From Alphaproteobacteria bacterium (GTDB lineage: Bacteria; Pseudomonadota; Alphaproteobacteria; Bin95): DNA of 40,739 nt. A program made the position numbers and the translations under genes. Under the pieces are notes generated by a model, which saw only the letters and a list, made by a program, of their open reading frames with translations, ran no database searches and was not told the DNA's origin. Shown here one piece after another: positions 1-12,545 of this stretch; positions within the stretch are counted from its first letter, which is position 1; each line of letters begins with the position of its first letter. The stretch is from contig JAJDVH010000206.1 of NCBI GenBank assembly GCA_022826185.1, positions 1 to 40,739 on the forward strand. The letters run 5' to 3'.

Positions 1-68
1 CCGGCGACCCGGCGACCCGGCGACCCGGCGACCCGGCGACCCGGCGACCCGGCGACCCGGCGACCCGG
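1..68. repeat. Tandem octamer repeat CCGGCGAC, 8 copies plus 4 bases
   Basis: The first 64 bases are eight perfect copies of CCGGCGAC, followed by a partial CCGG. The array touches the window edge, so the true copy number may be larger. Because 8 is not a multiple of 3, a gain or loss of one unit would shift any reading frame that crosses it. It is the same repeat class (octamer) as the one inside the autotransporter gene at 11973-12054, but with a different unit sequence. Confidence 0.95.
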
Positions 69-160
69 CCGGATAGATTGATTTTAATCAAGCAAAGCGC
101 GCGCAGCAAGCCGCGAAACGAAATCACACTCACCGTTAATCCCCTCTCGGCACATGTCAT
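1..160 (-). CDS. Possible 5' end of a leftward gene crossing the octamer repeat (partial, speculative)
   Basis: On the minus strand an ATG at 160-158 opens a frame that stays open for 53 codons to the window edge. An AGGAGG sequence lies about 12 nt upstream. The frame reads through an AT-rich segment and then through the octamer array, giving repeats of the eight residues VAGSPGRR. The other two minus-strand frames have stops in the AT-rich segment (TGA and TAA around 84-93), so this is the only frame open into the repeat. The gene body would lie outside the window. The organisation resembles the autotransporter start at 12127. The perfect FNR-type box at 78-91 would lie inside this reading frame, which argues that the segment could instead be a promoter region. 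Function cannot be stated. Confidence 0.25.
   Translation of the reverse strand, partial: MTCAERGLTVSVISFRGLLRALCLIKINLSGRVAGSPGRRVAGSPGRRVAGSP
78..91. promoter_or_regulatory. FNR/FixK/Anr-type binding box
   Basis: TTGAT-TTTA-ATCAA is an exact match to the FNR-family consensus TTGAT-N4-ATCAA, in an otherwise very GC-rich region. Sites of this kind usually lie about 41 bp upstream of transcription starts of oxygen-responsive genes. The controlled gene is not visible: either a leftward gene outside the window or an unrecognised transcript. Confidence 0.5.
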
Positions 161-9190: not shown

Positions 9191-12127
9191 TCAGAAGCCG
9201 ATGCGGAGGTCGAGGCGGACGGCGTGTTCGGGCTGTGCGGCGGTTTCGCGGCGTTCGCCGGCGAGTTCGAGCGCCAGCGCGCACCGCCGCGCCTCGAAGC
9301 GGGTCCCCAGCCTGAGCCTCGGGCCGTCGTCGCCGCCGGCGAGGCCCGCTTCCGCGAAGGGCGTCAGCAGCCCGCCGGCCCCGGGCGCCAGCGCGAAGCC
9401 GTAGCCGAGCCGCGCGTCCAGCGCCCCGCCGCCCGAGGCCCCGGACGCTTCCGGCGCCTCTTCCCGCCAGAGCGCCCCCGACCCGGCCGCGGGAGCGCCC
9501 CAGCGCGGCGTCAGCGCCAGCGACAGCCCGCGCCCGCCCGCCTCCGGGTCCAGCCGCACGGTCGCGCTCGCGCCCCGCTCCCGCGCGCCCTTCGCCGAAT
9601 GCGCCGCAAGCCAGCGCCCGCGCGCCTCCACGGATATGCCCGGCCCCGCATAGCGCACCCCGCCGGCAAGCTCGACGCCGCTGCCCGCAACGCCGTCGCC
9701 GCCGTCGCGCCGCGCCGCCAGTTCCGCGAAGGGCGACACCGACGCGCCGCCCTCCAGCGCAAAGCGCTTCGACGCCTCAAGCCCGCCCCTGAACCGCCAG
9801 GCGTCCGCCCTCAGGCCGTCAATCGCCTCCCCGCCCCCGCCGGTCTCCATCCGCGCGAAGCTGGCGTCCGCCCGCCCCGCAAGCTCGAACCCCTCCAGCG
9901 GCGCGAACGCCTGCCGCAGGCCGAGCGAGGCCGCCCGCATCGTCAGCCGGCTCTTCTCGCGCGCGCCCTCCCCGGGCGCATGGCGCGCCTCGCCCCGGCC
10001 CGCGCCCAGCAGGCCGCGCAACTCCAGCCCGTTGGCGAGGGTCCAGCGCCCATAGGGCCAGAGCGCCGTCAGCGCCGTCTCGACCTGGCCCGTCCCGCCT
10101 TCCAGCGCATAGTCCGTCTCGCTCGTCCCGCGCGAGACCGCCAGCCCCGCAACCCAGCGCCCGGCGCGCGCATCCGCGCCGAGCCAGCCGGTGCGCAGGT
10201 CGCCCCTGTAGCGCGCGCCCGCGCCGGCCCGGCCCTCGAAGGAGCCGAGATCGCCCCGGCCCCACACGCCCCAGCGCGGCGCCGCCGCATCGGAACCCGG
10301 CCCCCCTTCCGCCGCGCCCAGCGCCAGCGAGAACGCGCTCGAACCAAGAAGCTCGCCGGCCGCCATTCCCCGGCTCTCGCCGCCGCCGGACCGCCCGGCG
10401 TCCTCCGCGCCGCCCGCGCCGGACGGCATGGGCCGCCCCGCCAGCGCGAGGCCCGAGGACGGGACCGCCTCGCCCAGCCGCCCGCCGATATTGTCCAGAG
10501 CGCCCGAAACCGTCCGCGACGCCACCGACGCCAGCGCGCCCGCGAAGACCCGCTTCTGCGCCTCCGGCGCTCCGTGGACCGCCTGCCGGCCGGAGAAGGC
10601 CGCGACATCGTTGCCGGCGGCGTCCTGCAGCGGACTGGCGCCCGGCGTGTAGCTCACCGTTACGTCCGTCCCCGGCTCCACCGCCTCGGCAAGGCTCAGC
10701 GTCACCACCCTGCCGGAAAGGCCGACCGCCGACGGAGCCGCCGGGGCGCCGCCGTCCACCGTCACCTCGAAGTCGGTTGCAGCCGGAACCGAGGCCGGGT
10801 CCAGCCGCTCGTTGAAGCTCAGCCGCAGCCGGTCGCCGCTCACCGACGCGCGGACCAGCCGCGGCGGTGTCGTGTCCGGCGCCGCGCCGCCCGACCCGGC
10901 CAGCTGCTGGGCGCAGGTCTTCGTGGAGGCGGCCGGAGCGCCGCCGTTCACCCGGTGGCCCGTGTCCTGGGCCAGCCCGTCATGCGCGAGGGCCGCGGCG
11001 GTCGTGCCGTCCGACTTGGCCACGATCGTGCCGCCGTTCAACGCCAACGTGTTCTCGAGCACCGCGATGCCGTCATTCGAGCGGTTGAGGCCGGTCACCG
11101 TGTGGGAGAAGATCAGATTCGCCGTGCCGGAGCCGCTCTCATAGTCCGCCTGGAACGCGCCCCAGGTTTCCGCCGTGTTCATGTCGATCGTAATCTGCGG
11201 CGTGCCGGTGACGGTCACCGCCTCGTCGAAGGTCACCTGGACGCAGATATTCTCGCCGACCCCATAGAGGTTCAGCGGGTCGCCGGTGTTCCAGGTGAGC
11301 GAGGGGGTCGAAACCACCTCGACCGACGAGACCGCCGGCGGTTTCGCATAGCCGTGGACGGCAAGTTGGAAGGCGGCGTTGTTAAAAGTCTCCCACGAAT
11401 TCGAGATGGTGGAGAGAAATTGGCCGTTATTCGCAATGCTCCAACCCGCCCAGCCGCTATCCTCGTCATCTGATTGCGTGTCGCCCCAACGGGTGTGTTC
11501 GGTCCCGCCGGTGGCCTCGACCACCACGAAATATGTCGTGTCGGCGGCGAGGTCGATGCCGCCGTCGGGCGCGTTGAACCAGACATCGGCCCACGCGCCA
11601 CCCAGGGTGGTCGTGGTTGTCAGCGTGCCCAGACTGCTGTCCGGATTGCCGGACGACGAGGCCGAGTGGATGCTTACAGTGTAGGTCGGTTGGTCCCCTT
11701 GATTATGCCGGAGTTTGAGACTCACGGCAGTTACCCTGTAGCCTCTGGAAGAACTGCCAGTGGTGAACGCTTGGGCGTTATCCCAGCGAAAGTCGTGGTG
11801 CGAATTGTTCGTCCGGTCGAGGTTGCCGGTCAGTCTGCTTGCCGTCTGCGCCTGCGCCGCCCCGGCGACGAGCAGCAGAACCAGCGCCGCGGCGAGAGCG
11901 CGCGAAACGGAACGGATGAAGCAGGAAAGAGGCGGGCAGGGCCGGCGCCCGCCGGAACGCCTACTTAACTCGTCGGGCTGTCGGGCTGTCGGGCTGTCGG
12001 GCTGTCGGGCTGTCGGGCTGTCGGGCTGTCGGGCTGTCGGGCTGTCGGGCTGTCCCTCTTTCACGCTAGCACGAATCGAAACGCCAGTCGTCGCGAGCAC
12101 CGCGCCCGCTTCGAAGGTCCGGAACAT
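9191..12127 (-). CDS. Autotransporter adhesin-like protein with in-frame octamer repeat, phase-variable candidate
   Basis: The chosen start is ATG 12127, with GGGAGGGGGA close upstream; in-frame ATG 12148 and TTG 12160 are alternatives. The 978-residue product begins with a hydrophilic leader. Residues ~26-59 are the octamer-encoded PDSPTARQ repeat. A secretion signal follows (hydrophobic ALAAALVLLLVAGAAQA, cleavage near 101). Next comes a beta-sandwich passenger (~103-270, resembling choice-of-anchor domains), then Ig/cadherin-like and SwmB-like segments (~270-520), and a linker. The last ~280 residues form a C-terminal beta-barrel ending in aromatic F (DLRIGF), typical of outer-membrane proteins. 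It should be exported and displayed on the cell surface. No ATG, GTG or TTG lies in frame between repeat and signal peptide, so translation must cross the repeat. Both other frames stop at once after it (TAA, TAG). The copy number seen here is ON. Confidence 0.85.
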   Translation of the reverse strand: MFRTFEAGAVLATTGVSIRASVKEGQPDSPTARQPDSPTARQPDSPTARQPDELSRRSGGRRPCPPLSCFIRSVSRALAAALVLLLVAGAAQAQTASRLTGNLDRTNNSHHDFRWDNAQAFTTGSSSRGYRVTAVSLKLRHNQGDQPTYTVSIHSASSSGNPDSSLGTLTTTTTLGGAWADVWFNAPDGGIDLAADTTYFVVVEATGGTEHTRWGDTQSDDEDSGWAGWSIANNGQFLSTISNSWETFNNAAFQLAVHGYAKPPAVSSVEVVSTPSLTWNTGDPLNLYGVGENICVQVTFDEAVTVTGTPQITIDMNTAETWGAFQADYESGSGTANLIFSHTVTGLNRSNDGIAVLENTLALNGGTIVAKSDGTTAAALAHDGLAQDTGHRVNGGAPAASTKTCAQQLAGSGGAAPDTTPPRLVRASVSGDRLRLSFNERLDPASVPAATDFEVTVDGGAPAAPSAVGLSGRVVTLSLAEAVEPGTDVTVSYTPGASPLQDAAGNDVAAFSGRQAVHGAPEAQKRVFAGALASVASRTVSGALDNIGGRLGEAVPSSGLALAGRPMPSGAGGAEDAGRSGGGESRGMAAGELLGSSAFSLALGAAEGGPGSDAAAPRWGVWGRGDLGSFEGRAGAGARYRGDLRTGWLGADARAGRWVAGLAVSRGTSETDYALEGGTGQVETALTALWPYGRWTLANGLELRGLLGAGRGEARHAPGEGAREKSRLTMRAASLGLRQAFAPLEGFELAGRADASFARMETGGGGEAIDGLRADAWRFRGGLEASKRFALEGGASVSPFAELAARRDGGDGVAGSGVELAGGVRYAGPGISVEARGRWLAAHSAKGARERGASATVRLDPEAGGRGLSLALTPRWGAPAAGSGALWREEAPEASGASGGGALDARLGYGFALAPGAGGLLTPFAEAGLAGGDDGPRLRLGTRFEARRCALALELAGERRETAAQPEHAVRLDLRIGF
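11973..12054. repeat. Tandem octamer repeat TCGGGCTG, 10.25 copies, inside the autotransporter gene
   Basis: Ten perfect copies plus two bases. Three units (24 bp) encode the octapeptide PDSPTARQ on the minus strand. Immediately after the array the two other frames meet TAA and TAG within five codons, so a change of one or two units truncates the product before its signal peptide, while a change of three restores it. This is the signature of slipped-strand contingency loci. Confidence 0.95.
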
Positions 12128-12545
12128 CGTCCCCCTCCCGATCGCCATATTCGTCCACAAGGCGGTTCTTCAGATGAATACAATACCAAAAGAGGGGAAA
12201 TACCCACCATGAAAAGGGGTCATGCCAGGGATCATTGATCGGAACCCATGCTGCCAGCCGCCGGAAACCTCCTCCCCCGCTTGCGGGGGAGGCCGGGTGG
12301 GGGGCCGTTTTCGCGCCAGCGGAAACGGCGGGCAAAGCCCGGCAAAGGCCTGTACCCGCCCGCCGAGCGGGAGGGGAGAAAACCGGACGGCCTCGACATG
12401 AGTCCTGAATTACGCTCCCCGGTATAAATCCCGCTCCATGCCCCACTCGTCGCCCCGGCTTCCCCGCTCGGGGGCGAGGACAGGCGGGGGCCGGGGCGAC
12501 GGTGGAGGCGGCTCCGCCATCGGTTCCGGTCAACGACCGCTGGTA
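12128..12545. other. Intergenic region with dispersed repeat sequences
   Basis: No gene is seen. It contains the autotransporter ribosome-binding region (12128-12145), then GC-rich blocks shared with other intergenic regions. These are a TTGATCGGAACCC block near 12235 (cf. ATTGATCGAAACCCG near 24935), the sequence CCGAGCGGGAGGGGAGAAAA near 12363-12382 (cf. ~24974-24999), a 12-bp perfect stem (12448-12459 with 12490-12501), and GGTTCCGGTCAACGACCG near 12523 (cf. ~35038). These look like small palindromic intergenic repeats. Confidence 0.6.

Follow-up and report, generated by a model that had tools for sequence, protein, structure and literature searches.

Phase variation by simple sequence repeats (SSRs) has been described mostly from vertebrate host-adapted pathogens and commensals. 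In Haemophilus influenzae, the autotransporter gene lav carries a (GCAA)n switch that has been demonstrated by experiment (PMC9022572), and GCAA repeats also lie in the coding sequence in the TabA/TahA family of trimeric autotransporter adhesins (PMC3309571). In H. influenzae biogroup aegyptius, hmw is associated with an octamer, (GCATCATC)12-15, the copy number of which differs between strains (PMC3309571, PMC2651432). The locus analyzed here, located on a stretch of 40,739 nucleotides from an uncultured alphaproteobacterium (the window), resembles lav in that an SSR lies in the 5' part of an autotransporter ORF, with one-third of the tract lengths being ON and the others running into early stops. 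It differs in that lav harbors a tetramer, belongs to a gammaproteobacterial pathogen, and is backed by experiments, whereas the window locus harbors an octamer, belongs to an uncultured alphaproteobacterium, and is known from its sequence only; moreover, the window cassette occurs on different passengers. With hmw it has in common that an octamer array is associated with the gene for a large adhesin, but the hmw octamer sits some 200 nt upstream, in the promoter region, where it would tune transcription and not the reading frame. The likeness to TabA/TahA is that of an autotransporter family in which several members are frameshifted by a repeat, although the units there are short (mono- to tetranucleotide), in contrast to the 5-, 7-, or 8-bp units of the family found in this genus. 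New aspects are the uncultured alphaproteobacterial genus, the octamer in the coding start of an autotransporter gene, the mixed unit sizes per gene family, and the presence of one cassette on two unrelated passengers. In the literature available to us (open-licence papers only), we found no report of this kind for sponge symbionts and none of octamer contingency loci in alphaproteobacteria.

The window gene (positions 9191 to 12127, minus strand, as are all features of this locus) is ON at its present copy number and encodes a protein of 978 amino acids with the features of a classical (type Va) autotransporter. These are a signal peptide with n, h, and c regions (RSVSRALAAALVLLLVAGAAQA; 11849 to 11914), assigned by sequence and hydropathy without a signal-peptide predictor; a passenger with a choice-of-anchor R domain (NCBIfam NF041539, 1.5e-25; 11351 to 11818); a C-terminal autotransporter beta-domain (Pfam PF03797, 1.9e-11; 9686 to 10267); and F as the last residue. 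The protein also has an SWM/Ig-like repeat, and a plasmid search returned only short matches, to Azospirillum passenger domains.

The octamer array covers positions 11972 to 12054, i.e., 83 nt or 10.375 (10.4) perfect copies of GACAGCCC (GTCGGGCT on the plus strand); an earlier sequence-only reading of the window had recognized the array and its position correctly but counted 10.25 copies. In 100 first-order Markov surrogates of the window, period-8 runs reached at most 21 nt (mean, 16 nt), versus the 83 nt of the real sequence. The array is located in frame between a ribosome-binding site (GGGAGGGGG; 12131 to 12139; conserved in four loci) with an ATG at 12127 on one side and the signal peptide on the other; the leader codons 5' of the array (MFRTFEA...VKE) span 12055 to 12127, and the 978-amino-acid ORF reads through the repeat. 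Directly 3' of the array (11961 to 11967), both alternative frames are closed, the +1 frame after one codon by TAA (11965 to 11967) and the +2 frame after two codons by TAG (11961 to 11963). In the open frame, the first ATG, GTG, or TTG appears only 82 codons 3' of the array, well past the signal peptide. The earlier description of an in-frame repeat that is followed by stops in both other frames and by no usable start codon is thus accurate, and a unit whose length is not a multiple of three lies inside the ORF near its 5' end, as a frame switch demands.

When the copy number was varied in silico, 7, 10, and 13 units yielded ON products of 970, 978, and 986 amino acids, and the remaining copy numbers gave only 44 to 64 amino acids. 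Because 8 cannot be divided by 3, the full autotransporter results at every third copy number only, and a change by one unit toggles the gene between the full ORF and an early stop. Both the proposed rule that 3n+1 units are ON and the assignment of the present copy number to the ON state hold in this simulation, the 978-amino-acid ORF corresponding to the 10 assembled units. Judged by its anatomy, the locus would, like Haemophilus lav, vary its phase at the level of translation through slipped-strand mispairing at an SSR. We consider it very probable that it is a translational phase-variation (contingency) locus, with the reservation that there are no expression data and that a change in copy number within one population has not been shown. 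According to this explanation, ribosomes would initiate at ATG 12127 and translate the GACAGCCC array before reaching the signal peptide, translation of the leader being an inference. Slipped-strand mispairing would add or remove whole 8-bp units, so that 3n+1 units would lead to the full autotransporter and any other count to termination at TAA or TAG no more than two codons past the array. Changes of array length in living cells, the rate of such changes, and a reversible switching of expression are likewise inferred.

The same arrangement is found in a second species of the same genus, on contig JAJEAZ010000689.1 (G003:C129) of MAG jk18x7bins.95. The prefix jk18x7 has been used for MAGs from Ircinia cf. 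reteplana (PMC9531527), and from this part of the isolate name we infer that G003 originates from an Ircinia sponge. The shared cassette (11885 to 12231) comprises the promoter/leader region, ribosome-binding site, ATG, array, stop-bearing spacer, and signal-peptide start, and aligns by blastn with 88% identity over 12231 to 11972 and 93% over 12054 to 11885. Outside these approximately 345 bp, blastn found no homology between the window and the stretch surveyed around the second copy, except for one dispersed repeat. The ATG is kept, and the second copy has 9 nt more in the leader and 24 nt more in the array than the window (13.375 units, or 13.4, versus 10.375), so that the reading frame is preserved and both copies are ON. 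The first 31 nt 3' of the array, including TAA and TAG, are identical, and frame and stops are therefore conserved in both species. The passenger is an unrelated protein of 1117 amino acids ending in ...LRVAF, for which neither Pfam nor profile searches matched a PF03797-like beta-domain (pLDDT of the AlphaFold model of its end, 31). Furthermore, one additional G lies in the ribosome-binding region of G003, between an upstream ATG (12148) and ATG 12127, so that only the latter is in frame in both species; comparison of the two frames favors translation from ATG 12127. Two other candidates were rejected: position 12148 as a common start, since the extra G breaks its frame in G003, and a non-canonical ATC start in the stretch behind the array, which is not conserved in G003. 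The comparison set contains one genome per species and no reads; the difference between 10 and 13 units is thus one between species, and OFF alleles are found only in related genes.

The upstream leader with the ribosome-binding site and first codons (12102 to 12217) is shared beyond the array-bearing copies, namely with an array-less paralogue in the window genome (G000:C45) and its counterpart G003:C558. In G000:C45, a stop closes the leader frame, and the protein begins further downstream. This would fit an array situated in a leader that is not translated, where it would influence transcription or mRNA structure, with translation beginning downstream, as would two genes of the genus in which tetramer arrays lie about 300 bp or more upstream, one of them with its own ribosome-binding site and ATG. 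Such a role is very improbable for the window gene: neither there nor in G004:C200, G003:C476, or G003:C210 is any ATG, GTG, or TTG found between array and signal peptide, G003:C129 offers just a GTG inside the hydrophobic core, and the frame is conserved across species. Four exact GACAGCCC units were absent from all others of the 385 genomes of the class that were scanned, and the leader gave only tiny matches in the other genomes of this draw (which did not include G003), so that the cassette looks restricted to the genus. The junction of array and flank matched only one record in a genome collection of 84,980 species. Directly 5' of the cassette, positions 12220 to 12300 hold a hairpin-forming dispersed repeat that matches about 28 other places in the genome.

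Seven further surface genes, distributed over four genomes of the genus, carry arrays of 4-, 5-, 7-, or 8-bp units at their 5' ends, and all relatives found in G000 and G003 with the signal-peptide region of G004:C200 as the query have such an array. G004:C200 itself (octamer, 5.4 copies) is OFF, encoding 53 amino acids now, 1788 with one more unit, and in general a long ORF of about 1780 at other copy numbers. G003:C476 (octamer, 4.9 copies) and G003:C210 (5-mer, 24 copies) are OFF as assembled, with ORFs at other copy numbers of approximately 520 amino acids (cut by the contig end) and approximately 1360 amino acids, respectively. In these three genes, the long downstream ORFs are intact, the first start codons behind the array lie only in or past the signal peptide, and the signal peptides can be reached only via the array. 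G003:C467 (7-mer, 14.6 copies, followed by 8-mer, 4 copies) is not in frame with its upstream ATGs but has a possible ATG behind the arrays. G000:C273 has at least 27 copies of a 5-mer at the contig start, in frame with an autotransporter ORF of 1518 amino acids, and cannot be scored as ON or OFF because the gene start is missing. Calx-beta repeats are present in C200, C467, and C273, and the autotransporter barrel profile can be aligned with the latter two; no such barrel was placed on G003:C129 or G003:C210 by profile comparison. Finally, GCCT tetramer arrays lie upstream of the signal-peptide ORFs of G000:C102 (14.25 copies) and G005:C77 (17.75 copies), at the distance of about 300 bp or more given above; since a separate ribosome-binding site and ATG follow the array in G000:C102, that gene does not demonstrate a plain frame switch. 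Two unit sizes back to back ahead of one surface gene are seen at G003:C467 (2528 to 2654; L200), and a recombinase-like ORF adjoins the GCCT arrays of G000:C102 (11670 to 11726; L121) and G005:C77 (L131, 4397 to 4467) on the other strand, as judged by eye.

These alleles bear on whether the array might merely be a coding repeat that tunes the N-terminal extension or export (8 amino acids per three units), with off-frame changes being rare deleterious mutants. Both cassette copies are in frame, ON, and exactly three units apart, which an invariant coding repeat would fit as well, and the signal peptide of the array-less relative G005:C142 is likewise preceded by a long extension. The hydrophilic stretch that the sequence-only reading had called odd is hence present in the window protein but not unique to it. 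However, one would expect a tuning repeat to preserve the frame, whereas the units measure 4, 5, 7, and 8 bp, lengths that three does not divide; the stops that close both other frames immediately past the array are conserved; and related genes provide three clear OFF alleles with intact downstream ORFs, plus a fourth that is out of frame. We therefore regard a coding repeat of this kind as very unlikely. The phase switch proposed from the sequence alone, in turn, gains support from the frame simulation, from the frame and stops kept in G003, and from the OFF relatives. Neither of the outcomes named beforehand as speaking against it, a fixed copy number across isolates or translation that begins 3' of the repeat, was encountered, although variation within a species has not been shown.

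In the mechanism proposed, the window gene would be one of several switches of the genus on surface or autotransporter genes, with 5-, 7-, or 8-bp units in the same place and the 4-bp arrays upstream of two other surface genes as part of the set. It is tempting to speculate that a mobile cassette, made up of the promoter leader, the start codon, the octamer array, the spacer with its two stops, and the beginning of the signal peptide, is recombined onto different surface passengers. The array would then be both a switch and a site of passenger exchange, its units evolving freely among 4-, 5-, 7-, and 8-mers in a probably sponge-associated genus; we hold this only tentatively, as a possibility on the doubtful side. 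A benefit of such a surface switch for living in a host or for withstanding phage is a further inference. The presence of surface switches at several loci in uncultured alphaproteobacteria, including one genome from a sponge MAG set, suggests that surface bet-hedging matters in invertebrate symbioses or versus phage, and similar repeats on surface genes of relatives point to unreported random surface switches beyond the known pathogens. This idea is directly testable by repeat counts in existing sponge metagenome reads.

Arrays also occur at contig ends. At the start of the window (1 to 69, minus strand), 8.6 copies of the octamer GTCGCCGG are read through by a leader ORF that runs off the contig. 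This leader is homologous to that of the OFF gene G004:C200, with 93% identity over 83 bp of leader and array. The possibility of an assembly or binning artefact, to which the several arrays at contig ends might point, is scarcely conceivable given that this third genome has a homologous leader and array for the window-end locus and that the array of the window gene is found with identical flanks in two separate species-level genomes. As the genomes are fragmented (probably all MAGs), array lengths may nevertheless have been chosen by the assembler. We surveyed approximately 1.25 Mb of the window genome, in stretches partly picked for autotransporter genes, and of all seven arrays of 4- to 8-bp units therein, three lie 5' of an autotransporter gene and the other four sit at contig ends and have an open leader. 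Because sampling was partly directed at autotransporter contigs, array location does not represent an unbiased rate. Among the eight autotransporter-related genes of this genome whose 5' region is at least partly readable, three have arrays (C168, C102, and C273) and five have none. No partner contigs were found for the contig-end arrays, three or more GTCGCCGG units being present only in C8 and C168 of the window genome. Positions 1 to 69 of the window and 1 to 61 of G000:C8 hold an octamer array with nearly identical leaders, the downstream genes being absent from the assembly or unlinked. The relative of the window passenger without an array, G005:C142 (190 to 663; L190, L133), has an ORF that is cut short, with transposase-like sequence adjoining (by eye). 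Two further arrays are located at contig ends of the window genome, an 8-mer, CGGCCCAG, with 9.5 copies (G000:C32, 3854 to 3929; L146) and a 7-mer, GGCGCTC, with 10.9 copies (G000:C4, 1 to 76; L087).
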